From: a virus
Reading direction: 5' to 3' (one strand)
IMG/VR virus record: IMGVR_UViG_3300035703_000383
Span: 1-26,021 of that record
Length of the DNA: 26,021 bases
Below, piece by piece: positions 8,530-16,698 of this stretch. The notes beneath the pieces were generated by a model. It was not told the DNA's origin and searched no databases. It was given only the letters and a program-made list of their open reading frames with translations. A program made the translations under genes and the position numbers. Positions within the stretch are counted from its first letter, which is position 1. Every line of letters begins with the position of its first letter.

Positions 8530-10395
8530 TCAGGCGGTGGTGGCGTCCTTGATGACGGCGAAGGACTCGGGGTGGCGCAGTGCCACGTCCACGTCCTGCA
8601 GCGCCACCACGCGCACGGTGCCCGAGGTGCTGTTGGTGTAGGGATCCACCATCAGATCCAGGCCGCCCCACATGCCGATCAGCAGATCGTTCCAGTTGCC
8701 GAACAGCACCGAGCTCAGTGCGGTGCCGGTACCCTTGGTTCCGTTGCTGGGCACGGCGTTCGTCACGAAGGCGTTGTAGCCGTTGACGCTGTTGCCGTCC
8801 TGCCAAACGCGCTGGCCGGTGCCCGGGCCGTCGATGAAGGTGCGCTTGAGCTTGCCGCGCACTTTGGCGTTGGTCAGGTAGTTCAGGCTGCCGACCGCGG
8901 CGTTGGCGAAGGCCACGTTGGTTTCCAGGTCAACCACCGAGTCCCAGGTGATAGCGCCACCGTCGGTTCCCAGCGGAAGGGTGTAGACCTGGCTGGTCTG
9001 CAAGATGCCTCGCGGCTCATTGGACATGCCGGAGCCGTTGATGGCAGCGCGCTCGATCTCCAGCCCCAGGACGGTGGCCAGGTCGTTGCGGACCATGGCT
9101 TCCACGTCCAGGCTGGACTGCAGCAGCAGCTTGCGGCTGATGTCGGTGAAGGCGCCGACCGTCTTGGGTGTCATCGGCACCTGGTCGAAGGCCTGGGTGC
9201 TCTCCGTAGGGGAGTTGCCCTCAGCCACCCAGTAGGCGGTAGCTGCACCGGTGTGACGGGGGATGAACACGTTGCCCACCAGGCCGGTCATCATGCGCGT
9301 GCCCATGCCGGACAGCACCATGGCGTTGCGCAGCAGGGTGATGAAGTCGGCAGACAGGAGATCGTCCGACACCGTGGCGCCACCTGCGGCCAGCACGCCG
9401 GCGCTGAGGTCGCGGCGCAGCACATCGCTGGGAACCATGATGCCCTTGACGGCGCGGCCGGAGGTCTCGGCGGCGGCGCGGCTGGCCTCGAGCTCGAAGG
9501 CGGCGGCTTGCTGTGCGCGCTGGTCCTGGGGGTTGGCCAGGGCGTTGAGCACCCGCAGGAAGCTGTAGCGCTGCGTCTCGGCCTTGGTCATGCCCACATC
9601 GGCCGTCGGCTTGCTCTGGGTGGCCAACTTGTCCATCAGCTGCGCCCGGAACTCTTCGGCACCCTTTCCGGCCTGGATGGCTTCCATGGCCAGCTCGACG
9701 CCGCCTTGGCTCTTGAATTGCGCGCCGATGGCAGCAATGGTCTTGGCATCGGCCGAGCGATCGGCCACCACGGATTCAGACATGGTCTTTTCCTCTTGGA
9801 TGACGGCCTCTGTGGCCGCCGGGGTTTGGGGGGTCTCTTCGGCCTTGGTGGCCTCGGAGGTCGCCGCCGGAGCGGGGCTGTTGTCGGCTTGGTCTGCGCG
9901 GCCCACGCCGACCGTGGGGTCGGCAGGAACGGCCACCAGGCTGACTTCGAAGGGCTCCCAACGCACGACGCGATAGGTGCCCAGGCCGTCTCGCTCGCTC
10001 TCGAGCTTGGCCTCGTGAATCACATAGCCGACGCTGACATTGCGCCGGATGCCGTCGACCACGTCCTGGAAGATCTCGCTGGCTCGCGCGCTTCTCCCGA
10101 AGCGCACCTTGGCGCGGGCCACCCGGTCCGCGCCAATGCTCACCTGCTCAATCACCCCGACGACGTCACGGGCGTCGTGATCCATCAGGAGTGGGCCGCC
10201 CACGGTGAGGCGGTCCATCTTGATGCTCTCGGGCGCGTGATCGAGGATTTCGATGCCCCAGCCGCGCTCGTATGGCTCCTCCGAAGAGAAGGCGAGCTCG
10301 GCCGTGCGGGCCTCGACGTCGATCACAGCGCGCTTTTCCACACTCAGCAGCCGCGTGGCGCGGGTGCCGGGTGCATAGCGTGTGGTGATGTCCAT
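8530..10395 (-). CDS. Fused HK97-type prohead protease and major capsid protein
   Basis: A 621-residue single frame. Residues about 15-165 match the HK97-type prohead protease fold (S78/U35): a histidine in LLMDHD (H73), a serine in RRNVSVGYVI (S121) and FEVSLVAVPADPTVG at 149-163. A Pro/Ala/Thr/Glu-rich linker follows (about 167-203). From residue 205 (MSESVV) comes a helical scaffold-like delta region, then an HK97-fold capsid protein (GIMVPSDVL, FIPRHTGAATAYWVAEG, MTPKTVGAFTDISRKLLLQS, AAINGSGMSNEPRGIL, VALQDVDVALRHPESFAVI). It builds the shell and matures it. I start at the ATG at 10395; the frame is open to 10461. That ATG has no Shine-Dalgarno and follows a hairpin, whereas internal M205 has a strong one, so a separate 417-residue capsid protein is likely. 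Confidence 0.95.
   Translation of the reverse strand: MDITTRYAPGTRATRLLSVEKRAVIDVEARTAELAFSSEEPYERGWGIEILDHAPESIKMDRLTVGGPLLMDHDARDVVGVIEQVSIGADRVARAKVRFGRSARASEIFQDVVDGIRRNVSVGYVIHEAKLESERDGLGTYRVVRWEPFEVSLVAVPADPTVGVGRADQADNSPAPAATSEATKAEETPQTPAATEAVIQEEKTMSESVVADRSADAKTIAAIGAQFKSQGGVELAMEAIQAGKGAEEFRAQLMDKLATQSKPTADVGMTKAETQRYSFLRVLNALANPQDQRAQQAAAFELEASRAAAETSGRAVKGIMVPSDVLRRDLSAGVLAAGGATVSDDLLSADFITLLRNAMVLSGMGTRMMTGLVGNVFIPRHTGAATAYWVAEGNSPTESTQAFDQVPMTPKTVGAFTDISRKLLLQSSLDVEAMVRNDLATVLGLEIERAAINGSGMSNEPRGILQTSQVYTLPLGTDGGAITWDSVVDLETNVAFANAAVGSLNYLTNAKVRGKLKRTFIDGPGTGQRVWQDGNSVNGYNAFVTNAVPSNGTKGTGTALSSVLFGNWNDLLIGMWGGLDLMVDPYTNSTSGTVRVVALQDVDVALRHPESFAVIKDATTA
9783..9797 (-). promoter_or_regulatory. 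Internal ribosome binding site and start for separate capsid protein
   Basis: On the minus strand AAGAGG (9797-9792) stands 8 bases before an in-frame ATG (9783-9781, MSESVV). This is a near-ideal Shine-Dalgarno inside the protease-capsid frame, just after the low-complexity linker. Starting here gives 417 residues, close to a normal HK97-type capsid precursor with its delta domain. Capsids need hundreds of shell subunits but few proteases, so an internal start makes biological sense. The site is seen; its use is inferred. Confidence 0.6.
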
Positions 10396-10412
10396 GTCGC
10401 CATGTTGGCGAC
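10396..10412 (-). promoter_or_regulatory. Hairpin immediately before the protease-capsid start
   Basis: GTCGCCA-ACA-TGGCGAC is a perfect 7-bp stem with a 3-base loop that ends directly next to the ATG at 10395. It fills the place where the ribosome binding site should be, and no purine-rich Shine-Dalgarno is visible. It may keep translation of the full protease-capsid fusion low compared with the internal capsid start. Confidence 0.5.
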
Positions 10413-10414
10413 GA

Positions 10415-10449
10415 TCGGCGCGGTCGATAAGGCAAACGGCCGCGCCTGG
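10415..10449 (-). repeat. 35-bp dispersed repeat, copy 1
   Basis: Identical over 35 bases to 16310-16344. It lies 20 bases upstream of the protease-capsid ATG. On the transcript GGCGCGG pairs with CCGCGCC, with an inner CG/CG after one mismatch and a 10-base loop (TTTGCCTTAT). No T-run follows, so it is not a standard terminator. See the matching copy and the finding. Confidence 0.85.
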
Positions 10450-10457
10450 CGGCAGCT

Positions 10458-10715
10458 TCAAATGGCGCCGCAGAGGATCAGTCCTTCGTCATCCTCAACC
10501 GGCTGGCGGGCAATGATGGGCATGGGCGGTCGCCAGGCCAGGCGCGGCTTGATGCGGGCTGGCTTTCGAAGTGGGACGCGGCCGGTGCCGCCGGTGCTTC
10601 CAAAGATCAGCGGCTGCGGCTCTTCCTCTCGGAACACGCCCTGCAGCGCCAGAATGATGGCGCGAAGCGGAAGCGGCACGAAGCCGCGGCTTGCGATCAG
10701 TAGGCTGTTGCGCAT
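10458..10715 (-). CDS. Small hypothetical protein before the capsid gene
   Basis: An 85-residue basic, proline-rich frame (MRNSLLIASRGFVP ... DDEGLILCGAI) with an ATG at 10715, 13 bases after the preceding stop. It sits in the run of small late genes without gaps, which supports it being translated. I recognise no domain. The Pro/Arg-rich middle (PLRKPARIKPRLAWRPPMP) suggests an extended or disordered protein. The 35-bp repeat begins 8 bases after its stop. Confidence 0.5.
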   Translation of the reverse strand: MRNSLLIASRGFVPLPLRAIILALQGVFREEEPQPLIFGSTGGTGRVPLRKPARIKPRLAWRPPMPIIARQPVEDDEGLILCGAI

Positions 10716-10728
10716 GGGCGCCTGAGGG

Positions 10729-11094
10729 TCAAGCTACGCGCTCGATGCGCGTGGCGGTGGTGTTGACGTTGGTAAAGGTCAGGTCCACGCCGCCGCCAGT
10801 CTCGCCTTCGGGGCTGACCAGGCGTGGTGCGCCCAGGCCCAGGCGCTCGTGGGTGTCGCGTAGGGTCACCTCGCGCGATCCGTCCCACAGCAGCTCGCCA
10901 CTGCCGACGATCTCCTGACCTACCAGGATCAGCACCTGGTAGGCGCCGGCGGCCAGGGCGGCCGGGATTGAGGCGGTGTAGAAGCCCGCCTGGTCGGTTT
11001 TCGCCATGGGCACCGAGCCCGCGGCCACGCCGTCGCGGTACAGGCGGGCCACCGGCTGGGCGCCAGGGTCGGTGATGGCGTGAATGAGGCTCAC
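10729..11094 (-). CDS. Hypothetical late protein, beta-sandwich-like
   Basis: A 121-residue frame from a GTG at 11094, two bases after the preceding stop. The pattern LYRDGVAAGSVPM, GFYTASIPAALAAGAYQVLI and GSGELLWDGSREVTL resembles small Ig- or carboxypeptidase-regulatory-like beta-sandwich modules found in phage structural proteins. It lies among fibre-like genes between portal and capsid, so a capsid decoration or head-fibre part is possible. The start has only a weak ribosome binding site and is probably coupled to the upstream gene. No firm family. Confidence 0.6.
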   Translation of the reverse strand: MSLIHAITDPGAQPVARLYRDGVAAGSVPMAKTDQAGFYTASIPAALAAGAYQVLILVGQEIVGSGELLWDGSREVTLRDTHERLGLGAPRLVSPEGETGGGVDLTFTNVNTTATRIERVA

Positions 11095-11096
11095 GA

Positions 11097-11576
11097 TCAG
11101 AAGGTTACTTTGACTCTGCCCAGAAGGTCGATGTCCTGGGTCTTGCCGATGCCAGCAGTGCCGCCGATGCGCTTGCGGGTGAAAAGGCGCGTGCCGTCAT
11201 TGGCGGCCGGGTTCGTGCCGTTCAAAGCCCCGGAGCTCACGCCGATCTCGTACAGCACCACAGTGCTTCCGGGCGTCGTGCTGATCTCGGTGGTCAGGAA
11301 GGTCGCTTCGAATTGGAAAAATGGATCGGACGCCGCATCCTGGCCAGTGGTCTGCACGACGTTGGCGGCGGTTTTCCAGTAGCTGTTCGTGCTGGCCTGG
11401 CCGGCGGCGTTGTTAGCCGTGCCGCCGCCGAGCTTGTTGATCGCGTAGGAGGGCCCGGCGCCATCGACCGCATCGTTGGTTCCGAAGCCCAGAGAGTCCA
11501 CGACAAAACCGGCCTTCGGCCCAGAGCCGATGGTGCGGTCGCGCAAAATGAAAAGTCCGTTGTCAACGACCGGCAT
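11097..11576 (-). CDS. Hypothetical structural-type protein
   Basis: A 159-residue frame with a strong GGAGG ribosome binding site before its ATG at 11576. It is Gly/Ala/Thr/Asn-rich with no charged clusters (LGGGTANNAAGQASTNSYW, FEATFLTTEISTTPGSTVVL), typical of beta-structured virion proteins. It is the third of six small genes between portal and capsid. A decoration, fibre or adhesin subunit is plausible; I do not recognise a named family. Confidence 0.65.
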   Translation of the reverse strand: MPVVDNGLFILRDRTIGSGPKAGFVVDSLGFGTNDAVDGAGPSYAINKLGGGTANNAAGQASTNSYWKTAANVVQTTGQDAASDPFFQFEATFLTTEISTTPGSTVVLYEIGVSSGALNGTNPAANDGTRLFTRKRIGGTAGIGKTQDIDLLGRVKVTF

Positions 11577-11578
11577 GG

Positions 11579-11791
11579 TCAGCCTCCACAGTTGCAGAAT
11601 GGAATGATCGGCCCGTAGGGCGAGCCGTCTGGATCTAGGGCCTGCCGGAATGATCCGGCCACGATTCTTTCCACCGCCACGCCCTCGCGCTCAACGATGG
11701 TTTCGGAGAACACCTCCGACCCGCACCGCCGACACCTGGCCACCGCAGAGGTGTCCATCTGCCGAGGCTGGGGCATCTTGAGGCTTTCCAT
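11579..11791 (-). CDS. Small putative zinc-binding protein
   Basis: A 70-residue protein whose ATG overlaps the previous stop (TGATG at 11791). Two cysteine pairs, C20/C23 (ARCRRCGSEVF) and C66/C68 (PFCNCGG), could bind one metal ion as a split zinc ribbon. Small metal-binding proteins of unknown role do occur in phage late operons. No catalytic motif is seen, so the function is unknown. Confidence 0.6.
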   Translation of the reverse strand: MESLKMPQPRQMDTSAVARCRRCGSEVFSETIVEREGVAVERIVAGSFRQALDPDGSPYGPIIPFCNCGG

Positions 11792-12903
11792 CAGTACGTC
11801 CTTGAAGCGTTGACCACCATCCAGGCGCGGAAAAAGCTCGCAGTATTGCCCGCGCCCAGGCCTGTGCCGCTGGTCACAGTGCCGGTGGCTCGAATCTGCA
11901 GCGCTGAGAGCTTGGCGTTGTCCTGCCCAACCAGAGCGGTGATGTCGATAGTCCGGATGCCCTTGGCGGTTGCCGGAGTGTTGTGGGTGTAGAAGGTCGT
12001 GAACGTCGTGCCATCCAGGCTGTACTGATACTGGATGCTTGTCGTCGGTTGCGCAATGGCCACGCCAGCGGTAGCCCCTTGCGTCTCGACAAACAGGTTC
12101 ACATTGGAGATGGTCAGGTCCCCCAGGCGAACATCCTGGAAGCCCAGCGTGATCGTGCCGGTGACGGTGTTGTTCGTGGTGCCTGCCAAACCGCTGGCCG
12201 TGGCCGCGAGGGTCGCCGCCGTGCCGGTCGTGTTGCCCAGGCTGTTGTTCGGATTCGTCCAGCCGGTGCTGGCGACCACCGCGTTGGCGTAGCCGGTCAG
12301 GTTGGCCGTGATCGGCTCCACCACGATCTGCATGGGCACGGTGTTGTCCTGCTCAATCACTGCGGCGGCCAGGCCCTCTGTGATGGCGGGCACCGACTCC
12401 ATGGCGTTGGCCCTGACATCGATGCGCACGGTCTCGATTTGCTCAGGAACTTGCTCCGGTGTTGCAAACAGCAGGGCCTGAATGGTGTCGCGGATTTCGG
12501 GCAGGATTTCGTTGGACTGCGTCGCCAGGGCTAAGCGGTCAGCCTGGCCGGGGACCAGCTCGGCGATCATCGGCCGCACGGTGGTGCGGATCGTCTCGAT
12601 CTGCGCCGGGTTGATTTCTTCGGCGCGGACCAGCAGCGCGGCGATCACCTCCTCGATCTGCGGCGGCACGGCTTCCGTCGGGCGGACAGCAAGCACATCG
12701 CGCACGGTCTGGCCGGGAACCACCTCGGGGCGGTCGTAGGTCATTCGCTCGCGGGTGACGGTGTCGCCGCCACCACCACCCACGACGGTGGGCTCGAAGA
12801 AGGCCTCCTTGATCTGCCCCTGGTCGAGTACCAGTACGGCTGCGCCGCCGGCGGGGATTGCCCCCTCCGAGACGGTTCCGTCAGGCTGGACGATCAGCGG
12901 CAC
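11791..12903 (-). CDS. Putative head-fibre or decoration protein with tandem repeats
   Basis: A 370-residue protein starting with GTG at 12903. Three zones are visible: a short N-terminal beta region ending in a GGGGGD hinge (about 1-47); two and a half tandem units of about 54 residues (62-116, 117-170, 171 on), each opening with VP and holding an IETxR-type helix; and a Gly/Thr/Asn-rich beta domain (about 210-370; WTNPNNSLGNTTGTAATLAA, YQYSLDGTTFTTFYTHNTP) like phage fibre heads. The layout of stem plus beta head suggests an elongated surface protein. Its location between portal and capsid argues for attachment to the head, but this is inference. Confidence 0.7.
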   Translation of the reverse strand: MPLIVQPDGTVSEGAIPAGGAAVLVLDQGQIKEAFFEPTVVGGGGGDTVTRERMTYDRPEVVPGQTVRDVLAVRPTEAVPPQIEEVIAALLVRAEEINPAQIETIRTTVRPMIAELVPGQADRLALATQSNEILPEIRDTIQALLFATPEQVPEQIETVRIDVRANAMESVPAITEGLAAAVIEQDNTVPMQIVVEPITANLTGYANAVVASTGWTNPNNSLGNTTGTAATLAATASGLAGTTNNTVTGTITLGFQDVRLGDLTISNVNLFVETQGATAGVAIAQPTTSIQYQYSLDGTTFTTFYTHNTPATAKGIRTIDITALVGQDNAKLSALQIRATGTVTSGTGLGAGNTASFFRAWMVVNASRTY

Positions 12904-12915
12904 GGCTCAATTCAC

Positions 12916-13419
12916 TCAGGCCCGAAGGATGTGGTCGTCGATCTCGGTGGTGATCGCGGTGGCGGTATAGGCTCGGCCCAGGTACTGGTGCAGCTTGTTC
13001 GTCCCTGTCACCGGCGTCATGGTGTAGCCCCCGGGCACGGTGTCGGAGAGGTACACCCGCGCGCCGGGGGTGAGGCCGGTGGCGTTGGTGTTGCTGCCCT
13101 CAAAGTAGACGGTGACGGCCGCGCCGCTGGCTGCAGAGGTTTTCACGAACCCCACGGCCGGGCTCCCGCCGGGGCTGGCGGACGCCTTGGAGGCGGTGCC
13201 GGCCGGTGTGATGTACACGAAGTCTCCGGCTGTCAGAGACTCGCCCGCGGTTGTGGCGAACACATCGGCTCCAATGCCTACGGGAAGCAGTGACTCATCG
13301 AACTTGCCGGAGGCGTCCAGCGCCGGGATCTTCCCGCCCTGCGCTGCAGTTCCCCCGGTGACGGTGCCCTCAACCTCTTGCTCGATGCCGCTCAGCAAAG
13401 CGATGTACTTGTCTGCCAT
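12916..13419 (-). CDS. Putative phage fibre or decoration protein
   Basis: A 167-residue protein with ATG at 13419 preceded by GAGGG. Begins MADKYIALLSGIEQEVEGTV, then a segment GGKIPALDASGKFDESLLPV that resembles the linker found in many phage fibre and head-associated proteins. A C-terminal beta domain follows (DFVYITPAGTASKASASPGG, ARVYLSDTVPGG, HQYLGRAYTATAITTEID) reminiscent of capsid-decoration proteins. Likely a virion surface protein. Homologues seem common in phages, but I cannot name the family with certainty. Confidence 0.65.
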   Translation of the reverse strand: MADKYIALLSGIEQEVEGTVTGGTAAQGGKIPALDASGKFDESLLPVGIGADVFATTAGESLTAGDFVYITPAGTASKASASPGGSPAVGFVKTSAASGAAVTVYFEGSNTNATGLTPGARVYLSDTVPGGYTMTPVTGTNKLHQYLGRAYTATAITTEIDDHILRA

Positions 13420-13420
13420 T

Positions 13421-13795
13421 TCAGGCCCTCACGATCACGTTCTGAATGTCGATCCAAACCTCGGTTGCGCTGCGGGCGTGCCCGATGCGCTGGCTGAACA
13501 CGCCGACCTGAGACGACGTGATCTGGCCATCAAGCCCAAGGAATAAAAGCGCCCCCGGCGTCCAGTTCCAGCCGTCGTTTTTGAGGGCGCCAGCGTGCAC
13601 AACACGCACAGGGCCACCAGGTAGAGCGGCGTGAGCAGTAAATCCCACAAGACGGCCAGCGTGATCGCGCACGCCCGCGCTGGCGTAGTCAGCCAGGCCG
13701 GCTTCATCAGTGAGCACCCCATGAAAGGCCAGCAGCGCGGGGCCGGCCACCAGGCTGGCCGATGGCTGCCGCGGCGCGATCGGTGCGGCCAACAT
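13421..13795 (-). CDS. Hypothetical structural protein after the portal gene
   Basis: A 124-residue protein whose ATG overlaps the portal stop (TGATG at 13797-13793). The C-terminal half (NWTPGALLFLGLDGQITSS, SQRIGHARSATEVWIDIQN) has the W-TPG-LLFLG pattern common in phage fibre or decoration proteins. It leads the run of six small genes and is tightly coupled to the portal. Probably a virion surface part; the role is inferred from look and position. Confidence 0.65.
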   Translation of the reverse strand: MLAAPIAPRQPSASLVAGPALLAFHGVLTDEAGLADYASAGVRDHAGRLVGFTAHAALPGGPVRVVHAGALKNDGWNWTPGALLFLGLDGQITSSQVGVFSQRIGHARSATEVWIDIQNVIVRA

Positions 13796-15741
13796 CAGGC
13801 ATCGCTTTCCACCGCCACCGAGCTGCTGATGCGCCCGGCGCTGTCGCGCGTGATGGTGGTTTCGGTCTTGCGGGACGGCAGGGTGAGCTCGACGGCCGCC
13901 GGCTCGATGGTGGCCTCAACAGTCACTTCGGCCGGTGCCACGTTCACGATTGGAGCGGCCACGTTCACCACGGGTGCCTGGGCATCCACCCGCACCTCGG
14001 TGGGCGCGATGTTGACCACTGGCGGCGGCTGGTCCGGCAGCTTGATTTCGGCCTTCAGCTCGGTCTGAGCTGGGGCGATGTGGTTGTGGATCTCGATGGG
14101 CTTGGCGGGCTGGCCGTTTGCCGTGCGGCGCTCCAGTTCGTCTACCTTGCGCTCGATGCGCTGCCAGACGCGGCGCAAGACGGCCGACCGCCCGCGCGCC
14201 TGGTTGTCGTCATCGGCTTCCTCTTCCTCGGTCTGGTCGCCTTCTTCATCAGGCGCGGCGCGGGGTGCGGGCTGCGACGCTGCGCCCAGGGTCACGCCGT
14301 AGCGGGCGGCCATCTGCGCCTCGCGCTGCTTGGTGGCCATGACGTCCTCGATGTCGACGCCATTCTTGGCCGCCACGTCGGTGGCTGTGGTCAGCCCGGC
14401 CTCGATGGCCAGGATCGAGGCCTGCACGTCCTTCATCGGGTCCACCCACTGCCAGCGGCGGGCCATGAAGCAGTGCTCCCGGAACTTGTCGAGCTTGGCC
14501 ATCGGCAGTGGCGCCGGGCCATTGCGAGAGGTCTGAGTGATGGCGCCGGCGGCGATTCCGACCTGCAGCCAGGCGTCGAAGATCGGGTCGACAACCGACT
14601 CGATGAGCCAGTCCTGCAGCATGATCCACTGATCGCGCTCTTCCAGGACGCCGCTGCGGATTGAACTGTAGTTCACACCCTCCAAGTCGTTGCTCAGGGT
14701 GTTGTAGGACACGCCCAGAGCAGAGCTGATGCCTCGCAGGGTGGCTTTGATGAACTCACCGAATTGTTCGTGGGGGTACTGCGGGTCGTAGCTCTTGAAA
14801 TCCGTGCCGGGGGGCAGGACGCCGAACTCACCCGGGCTGGCCGAGGTGTAGGGCACCTCGTGCTCATCGGTGGAGTCGGTGAGCGTGTCGGGTTGCTCGG
14901 TGGTGAAGAAGCCCATCTTCGCCGCGCCGATCCGCGCCGCGATCACCGCAGCTTCCCGGTAGCCCGCCAGGTCGTTGAGGCGCCGCATGGCGGCATGGCC
15001 CCAGGGGTAACCGCGGGTCTGCTCGAGCTCCAGGGGAAGGAAGGCGTGGATGACGTCGCGGGCCAGCACGCGCTCGGTCTCGCCGGCGGGCTCGGTGCTG
15101 TAGGCGTTGGTCGGCAGGTTCTGCAGCAGGTGGTAGGCCACTGGCTTGTGGAACTGGTCGACCTCAACGCCCATGATGATGGCGTTCTGGTTGCCCGTGC
15201 GGGCCCGGTTGCAGTGCACGTCCAGACGTTCAATGTCCAACAGCTGCAGCTGCAGACCGTAGGTTCCGCGGCCGCGGTAGACGCGGATCAGCAGCTCGCC
15301 ATCCCGGGCCAGGGCCACGACGGCCGTGCGCAGCAAAGTCCACAGGCCGGACCGGCCGGCCACATCGCATTCGGTGGGCTTGGCCCATTTGATCCAGTGG
15401 GTCTCGATGGCGCTGGCCGCCTGGCCGTCGACCACCGGGCCGCCGGCGGTGACGTCCACTGGCTTGCTCTGCAGCGTCATGCCTGGGCCGATGATGTTGG
15501 CCGCGCACATCGCCAGGAATCGCTTCATGTATTCGTTGTCGCGGGCCATCTGGCGGCTGCGGCGGCGCAGCAGGCGCAGGTCGTTACGCAGTTCCTGATC
15601 GATTGCCGAGTCGGCGGCGGCCCATGCGGCGGTGAGGCGGTCAACCTTGGCGGCTTCAAAGCGGCGGCGGCCTTGCGGCTTTTGCAGCGGTGAGGGGTTG
15701 GCAAAGGCGCGGAGTCTGTCCAGCAGGGACGGCGTCGGCAT
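13795..15741 (-). CDS. Portal protein, lambda gpB type
   Basis: A 648-residue protein; I start at ATG 15741 (MPTPSLLDRLRAF), which overlaps the preceding stop as TGATG, although the frame is open further upstream. Lambda-type portal signatures: RRRSRQMARDNEYMKRFLAM, then NIIGPGMTLQSKP, DGELLIRVYRG, LQLLDIERLD, PWGHAAMRRLNDL and FIKATLRGISSALGVSYNTL, then WQWVDPMKDVQASI. It forms the dodecameric DNA entry ring and binds terminase. The body ends near residue 500. About 130 extra residues follow: an acidic EEGDQTEEEEADDDN run, a coiled-coil-prone stretch and a Val/Pro-rich repetitive tail (APVVNVAAPIVNVAPAEVTV), longer than lambda B (533 residues). Confidence 0.95.
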   Translation of the reverse strand: MPTPSLLDRLRAFANPSPLQKPQGRRRFEAAKVDRLTAAWAAADSAIDQELRNDLRLLRRRSRQMARDNEYMKRFLAMCAANIIGPGMTLQSKPVDVTAGGPVVDGQAASAIETHWIKWAKPTECDVAGRSGLWTLLRTAVVALARDGELLIRVYRGRGTYGLQLQLLDIERLDVHCNRARTGNQNAIIMGVEVDQFHKPVAYHLLQNLPTNAYSTEPAGETERVLARDVIHAFLPLELEQTRGYPWGHAAMRRLNDLAGYREAAVIAARIGAAKMGFFTTEQPDTLTDSTDEHEVPYTSASPGEFGVLPPGTDFKSYDPQYPHEQFGEFIKATLRGISSALGVSYNTLSNDLEGVNYSSIRSGVLEERDQWIMLQDWLIESVVDPIFDAWLQVGIAAGAITQTSRNGPAPLPMAKLDKFREHCFMARRWQWVDPMKDVQASILAIEAGLTTATDVAAKNGVDIEDVMATKQREAQMAARYGVTLGAASQPAPRAAPDEEGDQTEEEEADDDNQARGRSAVLRRVWQRIERKVDELERRTANGQPAKPIEIHNHIAPAQTELKAEIKLPDQPPPVVNIAPTEVRVDAQAPVVNVAAPIVNVAPAEVTVEATIEPAAVELTLPSRKTETTITRDSAGRISSSVAVESDA

Positions 15742-16289
15742 CAGAGCCTCACAAACAGCTTGTTGCGCGGCAGCTGCCCGTTGGCCAGGCGCTGGGCGGC
15801 ATCCTCGGCACGGGCGTCGCGCCGGTAACGGTCGCGCAGCTCCAAGAGCTCGGGGATGGGAATGTGGCGCAGCTCGCGCCCGGCGATCTGGTAGCTGGCC
15901 ACAGCACTGGACGCGCGGCCCTCGATGACGGCCTCGATGTTGTCCAGGGTGCGGCGCACATGGGTGCGCGTGTCCAGCCCAGCGGTGGCTGCGGCCAGGT
16001 CGGGCAGGATTTCGATTTCGCCGGTGGCCAGCGTGGTGCGCTGGGCGAGCCTTTCGACGTAGGTTTGCCAGCGGTAGCGGCCTGCCACCCAAGTGCCTGA
16101 AACTGCTGAGTTGATGGAGAGAGCGTGCGCCGCTCCGCTGGCAACCGTCGAAAACGTGATCTGCGCGCCGGCGCTGACCAGTACAAACCGCAGGACCCAG
16201 CCATCACTGGCCGGGTACTCAGGCAGCTCGAACTGCCGCTCTAGGCTGTCGCCGGCGTACAGGCGGCTCGGCAGGCTCACGGTTTGCAT
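15741..16289 (-). CDS. Head-tail joining protein with gpW-like C-terminus
   Basis: A 182-residue protein between terminase and portal, the lambda W position. An AGGA ribosome binding site precedes the ATG at 16289. N-terminal half is beta-rich (SLERQFELPEY, WVAGRYRWQTYVERLAQ). The C-terminal segment (IEAVIEGRASSAVASYQIAG, then LRHIPIPELLELRDRYRRD) resembles lambda gpW, which plugs the portal after packaging. The protein is over twice the length of gpW (68 residues), so it looks like an added N-terminal domain. Its start lies inside the 3' end of the Mor-like gene (71-base overlap). Confidence 0.65.
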   Translation of the reverse strand: MQTVSLPSRLYAGDSLERQFELPEYPASDGWVLRFVLVSAGAQITFSTVASGAAHALSINSAVSGTWVAGRYRWQTYVERLAQRTTLATGEIEILPDLAAATAGLDTRTHVRRTLDNIEAVIEGRASSAVASYQIAGRELRHIPIPELLELRDRYRRDARAEDAAQRLANGQLPRNKLFVRL

Positions 16290-16698
16290 CAGGCATATCC
16301 TGACGGCGTTCGGCGCGGTCGATAAGGCAAACGGCCGCGCCTGGTGCGTTGGCCGGCTGATCGGCCCGGTGCTGCTGCAGGATCTCCTGGATGCGCCGCT
16401 CGCTCAGGCCGAAGTGGCGGCAAAGGAAGCTGATGTGCTCCCCACGGTTCCAGCGCAGCAGAATTTCCTTGTTCCTGGCTGAGGCGGCCTGTATGCCCAG
16501 GCTGTGGGTCTTTCCGATGTAGACCTTCTCGCCTCCCCACGAACTGCGCACGCGCTTTTCGGCCTCGCCGCGGCATTCGAGGGCCAGCTTTTCCACCTCC
16601 AGGCGCAGCGTGGGTGAGGCTCGGGCGCCGGTTTCCCTGAGCAGGGTGATCAGGGTGTCGAGGGTGTCGTGGATGATGTCGCTTGGCATGTACTTCAC
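16219..16698 (-). CDS. Mor-family transcription regulator
   Basis: A 159-residue protein starting with GTG at 16698 (GTGA overlap with the TerL stop) or ATG at 16689. Helical N-terminal half, then GGEKVYIGKTHSLG, RNKEILLRWNRGEHISFL and a helix-turn-helix CRHFGLSERRIQEILQQH. This order matches the Mor/C transcription activator family of phage Mu (beta strand for dimer groove, then HTH). About 45 residues follow the HTH, partly encoded by the 35-bp repeat. Mor activates Mu middle genes; here the gene sits inside a lambda-like late operon, so it may control virion genes. DNA targets are unknown. Confidence 0.75.
   Translation of the reverse strand: MKYMPSDIIHDTLDTLITLLRETGARASPTLRLEVEKLALECRGEAEKRVRSSWGGEKVYIGKTHSLGIQAASARNKEILLRWNRGEHISFLCRHFGLSERRIQEILQQHRADQPANAPGAAVCLIDRAERRQDMPDANREPAEPPVRRRQPRAAVRAA
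16310..16344 (-). repeat. 35-bp dispersed repeat, copy 2
   Basis: Identical to 10415-10449 and 21 bases upstream of the gpW-like gene ATG. Here it also encodes the peptide GAAVCLIDRA in the Mor-like reading frame. In the 12 bases after the repeat the copies differ, but the same frame still reads (D/E)RRQ in both, with only third-base changes. Confidence 0.85.

Follow-up and report, generated by a model that had tools for sequence, protein, structure and literature searches.

The window analysed here, 26,021 nucleotides of viral DNA (IMG/VR record IMGVR_UViG_3300035703_000383), carries on its minus strand a protease-capsid fusion gene (8530-10395), a single open frame of 621 codons whose product of 621 residues has a mass of 66.0 kDa. 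Residues 68-162 (9910-10194, minus strand) match the Pfam profile of the S78 prohead protease (PF04586, E 6.5e-6, 26.8 bits against a cut-off of 21), and residues 338-616 (8548-9384, minus strand), the HK97-fold shell domain, match Phage_capsid (PF05065, E 5.5e-47, 160.9 bits). The protein also matches the solved shell protein 8gta (1.3e-53) and, in PHROGs, the family phrog_617 (8e-166, over profile positions 9-625 of 626). The protease looks active, because H73, S121 and E150 are invariant in an alignment of 48 relatives. A preliminary description of this DNA had read the frame as an HK97-type protease joined to the major capsid protein, and the profile matches agree. The fusion is real, but it belongs to a known family and is not novel. 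Relatives occur in 132 phage records (54 of them at a coverage of at least 80%, none at 60% identity or above), and several are already annotated as a capsid-protease fusion.

The full-length start is best placed at the ATG at 10395; a TTG at 10461 was considered and rejected, because relatives start some 35-65 codons before the ERGW motif, where this ATG lies. An open frame of 717 codons (8572-10725, plus strand) runs antisense to the entire fusion gene and is probably no more than a consequence of codon usage at high G+C. Several small open frames, one of them weakly similar to a phage cement protein (PF09956), separate the portal and protease-capsid genes of the window (10458-13795, minus strand); in many relatives the two genes adjoin or overlap. 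The fusion of Roseobacter phage CRP-811 (record L098, 775-3225) has an extra N-terminal region of about 230 residues that contains EDQTMTDE, which resembles another start-like methionine context.

Protease and capsid parts are joined by a low-complexity linker (residues 167-204; 9784-9897, minus strand), after which codon 205 is an in-frame ATG (9783). It is preceded at 8 nt by the Shine-Dalgarno (SD) stretch AAGAGG (9792-9797, minus strand) and is predicted to initiate a nested capsid precursor of 417 residues and 43.8 kDa (8530-9783, minus strand); start codon, ribosome site and product length are all as first described. Within its own linker this is the best position for pairing with the 16S tail (-6.0 kcal/mol), a value that the next codon equals. 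Of the 16 further ATGs in the gene, that at codon 582 pairs better (-6.7) and that at codon 71 nearly as well (-5.7). Taken alone, the site in the window is only modestly special and the weight of the case comes from its conservation; it was because the internal start barely exceeds chance in the window that relatives were collected.

About 320 relatives, drawn from viral contigs, bacterial genomes and phage records, were compared in dereplicated sets of 249 (family A) and 75 (family B), the latter a second fusion family of a different capsid clade represented by RcDormio and Shewanella phage 1/44. Statistics for family A were computed on 63 clusters (below 70% identity), and a site was called SD-like if it paired with the 16S tail at -4 kcal/mol or better. 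The protease-to-prodomain linker cannot be aligned between lineages, yet an in-frame ATG with an SD-like stretch is almost always there. An in-frame linker ATG is found in 61 of the 63 family-A clusters, where about 50 were expected to have one and about 13 to lack it, and the two exceptions have a GTG behind AAGGAG (L055) or GGAGGT (L081). SD-like pairing is found before 76% of these ATGs; for other in-frame ATGs the figure is 18%, and for ATGs lying out of frame within the same linkers it is 9%. When all positions of a linker are ranked, a comparison that controls for composition, the SD of its ATG lies at a mean percentile of 0.217 (Wilcoxon p = 1.4e-9), and in family B the ATG is present in 18 of 18 clusters and is SD-like in 89% against 24% (p = 7.6e-6), p-values that overstate independence given the shared ancestry among clusters. 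The E. coli 16S tail alone missed sites of the GAAAG type; when the analysis was repeated with a longer tail, ...CCUCCUUUCU, chosen for the likely hosts and possibly not that of the window's own, the SD-like fractions were 85% against 24% in family A and 100% against 33% in family B.

Other traits of the site resemble those of real gene starts. The residue after the internal methionine is enriched in S, T, P and A in both families, as at such starts. The SD block CGGAGAACCGC does not vary among 15 Variovorax-type sequences, third positions included, while the surrounding linker gained and lost codons. The main strength of the case is that lineages differ in the amino acids from whose codons the SD is made (EE, KE, EV, GE). 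In some clusters the linker ATG has a weak SD or none, as in L097, from a cyanophage, and in L214 and L222. A synonymous-codon shuffle fails to separate the internal SD from what the amino acids force, a null of little power since Lys, Glu, Arg and Gly codons are themselves SD-like, and the own-linker comparison replaced it. The preliminary description had proposed two starts in one gene and named the loss of the internal site from close homologues as evidence to the contrary; the site is instead conserved in two separate fusion families, which supports the proposal. The protease gene of these phages thus contains a conserved internal start codon with its ribosome site, as expected of a nested in-frame gene. 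In the phage records examined, this start is unannotated and the fusion appears everywhere as one product. Searches of the open-licence literature found no description of an internal start in protease-capsid fusions, and subscription journals may contain one.

The size of the predicted short product is that of an ordinary capsid precursor, as had been suggested. Internal products in the family have a median of 433 residues (5-95%: 410-487), and in unfused relatives outside family A, where the protease has its own gene, the capsid precursor encoded behind it measures 427-439 residues (428 in phiKO2, 427 in Marinobacter AS1, 437 in L145 and 439 in L147). The precursor of phiKO2 is annotated as N-terminally cleaved. 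Because the mature R4C capsid chain (8gta) aligns with the window protein from residue 338 onwards, the alignment suggests a delta-like prodomain of about 133 residues (205-337; 9385-9783, minus strand), predicted to be removed on maturation, followed by a shell protein of 284 residues.

The start of the full-length product looks very different. No SD precedes the ATG at 10395 (-0.9 kcal/mol with the 16S tail), which follows directly on GTCGCCAACATGGCGAC, a perfect hairpin of 7 bp whose stem ends at -1 (GTCGCCA-ACA-TGGCGAC; 10396-10412, minus strand). Both features had been noted before. The hairpin alone is not rare, since the window holds about 21 perfect 7-bp hairpins with loops of 3-8 nt. 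Relatives nevertheless show an excess of dyads that abut the ATG: those of at least 5 bp occur in 9 of 20 copies of the upstream element, against 0.9 expected. Such dyads lie upstream of the capsid ATG in L042, L035, L039, L078 and L140.

Further upstream lies a palindrome, GGCGCGG-ccgTTTGCCTTATcga-CCGCGCC (10417-10446, minus strand), centred 36 bp before the ATG and predicted to be an activator site; between the two, 6 nt before the ATG, is a predicted -10-like hexamer, CAACAT (10402-10407, minus strand). This order of palindrome, -10-like hexamer and ATG, usually lacking an SD, is conserved. In some 35 relatives a palindrome lies upstream of the full-length ATG with (T)TTGCCTT(A/G) as its conserved centre, the GCCTT lying 38-42 nt from the ATG. 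A wider search found palindromes with unrelated arms and even other centres, and in nearly all of these lineages the centre lies 36-39 bp upstream of the ATG. It is the centre, not the edge, of the palindrome that keeps this distance while loop length varies from 8 to 16. The hexamer, placed 5-9 nt before the ATG, fits nAnnnT in 12 of 20 copies (2.4 expected), and several others read TGCAAT. In lineages with the palindrome, the SD of the full-length ATG is weaker (median -1.8 against -6.1 at the best candidate ATG, p = 0.007): it is weak in seven of ten such lineages, the other three having an SD-like stretch. Family-A lineages that lack the palindrome mostly have an ordinary start with an SD, often overlapping the portal gene, so the leaderless part of our interpretation concerns a subclade, whereas the internal start concerns the whole family. 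Intrinsic terminators were seen by eye just upstream in L029, L031, L037 and L047.

A second, identical copy of the palindrome (16312-16341, minus strand) points to a candidate regulator. It lies upstream of the ATG (16289) of an open frame of 182 residues with no assigned function (15741-16289, minus strand) and directly behind an open frame with the helix-turn-helix text RHFGLSERRIQEIL. From this text we predicted a Mor-type protein beforehand, and Pfam agreed, placing the gene (16219-16698, minus strand) in the Mor family of transcription activators (PF08765, E 1.6e-8, above the cut-off). Record L398 has a similar arrangement, in which a gene with a Mor profile, ending in a similar helix-turn-helix, precedes a copy of the palindrome and an open frame of 182 residues in the same place; its second copy lies between an open frame of 526 residues, probably the portal gene, and the protease-capsid gene. 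A Mor gene is present in 14 of 15 records bearing the palindrome and in 4 of 19 others (Fisher p = 2.8e-5), a comparison in which many records are fragments and mutually related and in which palindrome status comes from our own scan.

Palindromes with the centre TTTGCCTT(A/G) usually occur in two copies per record, one behind the Mor gene and one before the protease-capsid gene, as in the window and at positions 30 and 2177 of L018, 529 and 2763 of L078, and 815 and 2940 of L076. Their arms are alike within a genome and different between genomes. In the Variovorax-type records L012-L024 and L088, the second copy, at about position 770, has a -10-like GATAGT and no ATG at the usual distance; the text CGGTCAACACTGACCAAAGG downstream of it is conserved. 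In L034, a record with a Mor gene, a palindrome at about 2940-2980 (GTCAAAT-N12-ATTTGAC) ends exactly at an ATG and is not centred near -37.

From these regularities we infer that the module is an activator-dependent promoter, with Mor as the protein that would bind the palindrome, from which transcription would start at or next to the ATG, leaving the full-length message leaderless or nearly so. Such a transcript start would explain both the missing SD and the use of ATG as start codon. The flush dyad overlaps the predicted -10 and would go untranscribed in a leaderless message. A promoter of this kind fits the data better than a hairpin that blocks translation. Compared across homologues, the hairpin takes its place within the conserved module of palindrome and -10-like hexamer.

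All of this evidence comes from comparing sequences. It shows how the gene is laid out, how well and with what statistics its internal start is conserved, that palindrome and -10-like hexamer form a module, and that this module goes with a Mor gene; we infer where initiation and transcription would begin, that Mor would bind the palindrome, in what ratio the products are made and how they assemble. The best explanation, to which we give a probability of roughly 80%, is that one frame yields two co-terminal products from two starts. Initiation at 10395 would give the full-length protease-prodomain-capsid fusion, and initiation at the ATG at 9783, with its own SD, the prodomain-capsid precursor of 417 residues. 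The short precursor, made in excess, would form the prohead, and a smaller number of full-length chains would be built in by way of the capsid domain that both products have, carrying the protease inside. The enclosed protease would then remove the prodomain, so that the shell protein would start near residue 338. In the subclade of the window, the full-length mRNA is probably leaderless or nearly so, because the ATG lacks an SD and is preceded at constant spacing by an activator-type palindrome and a -10-like hexamer. With a weak leaderless start followed by one that has an SD, output would be tilted in favour of capsid.

Alternatively, the full-length fusion might be the sole product, cleaved both in the linker and behind the prodomain, the methionine and purines of the linker reflecting the composition of a charged linker. 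Prohead proteases are known to cleave at several sites, the frame is uninterrupted, split copies being absent from 296 testable loci of family A, and the synonymous-shuffle null is weak. Yet the SD at the methionine exceeds that at other positions of the same linker; a methionine is present in nearly every linker, with S, T, P and A enriched behind it, and the exceptions lacking ATG use GTG with strong SDs. We regard this explanation as very unlikely. Somewhat less improbable, though still distinctly unlikely, is that both starts are used at comparable rates and that the internal one provides unfused capsid without setting a strong ratio. Where the palindrome is missing, the upstream SD is often good, and paired over 69 lineages the internal site is the stronger in 45 and the weaker in 23. 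Against comparable rates, the window and most of its closest relatives combine a weak upstream start with a strong internal one, and assembly of the HK97 type, as known from HK97 and lambda, needs shell subunits in hundreds and far fewer proteases.

The remaining alternative concerns only the upstream element. Palindrome and hairpin might belong not to a promoter but to an RNA leader with two stems, through which translation from the full-length start is regulated, for instance as an operator for capsid or protease. From one lineage to another the sequence of both stems changes while the stems themselves persist, and the ATG-flush hairpin is enriched, as this model would have it. An RNA leader would not easily account for the constant distance of the palindrome centre from the ATG, for the tendency of copies within a genome to share identical arms, for the -10-like hexamer with terminators just upstream, or for the neighbouring Mor gene and its co-occurrence with the palindrome; a search of Rfam with the upstream element matched no RNA family. 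We hold it to be unlikely, if less so than the two previous alternatives.

Two starts in one frame recall several known systems. In lambda C/Nu3, Mu I/Z and herpesvirus UL26/UL26.5, an in-frame internal start or nested transcript within a protease gene gives an abundant structural product that shares its C-terminus. The short product of these systems is a scaffold, whereas that of the window contains the whole shell domain and would be the major capsid precursor itself, which makes the window gene a variant, not a member, of the C/Nu3-type systems. HK97 gp4/gp5 likewise combine a protease with a prodomain-capsid precursor, no separate scaffold gene being seen, and gp5 is similar in size and layout to the internal product of the window; HK97 uses two genes for this, the window one frame with two predicted starts. 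The other members of phrog_617 (VP882, phiHAP-1, the FoX phages, Jilinvirus and Rhodobacter phage RcRhea, of which VP882, FoX, Jilinvirus and RcRhea can be cultured) have the same architecture as the window gene, and nearly all relatives have the predicted internal start too. As for the promoter, those activated by Mor and C in Mu likewise combine a Mor-family gene, an upstream inverted repeat and a sigma70-like -10 (PMC4390567, PMC4461284). In Mu, the centre of the Mor site is at -43.5 relative to the transcript start (PMC4390567), whereas sites of the window type are centred 36-39 bp from the start codon, 5-7 bp closer if the transcript starts at the ATG. In the window gene, unlike at the Mu promoters, the predicted transcript start falls on the start codon.

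The fusion of protease and capsid raises a puzzle of stoichiometry, because at face value each subunit of the shell would carry a protease. The conserved internal start would resolve this puzzle for a large group of phages, whose annotated capsid gene would hide a second gene. The promoter module suggests in addition that transcript start and start codon are locked together in a phage structural gene. More broadly, and tentatively, at slightly less than even odds, fusions across at least two capsid clades may be covert two-gene units. In the window's subclade, a leaderless start for the protease fusion, on an activator-driven transcript, and an SD-driven internal start for the capsid precursor would be combined on one message, so that the mode of initiation would set the protease-to-shell ratio.
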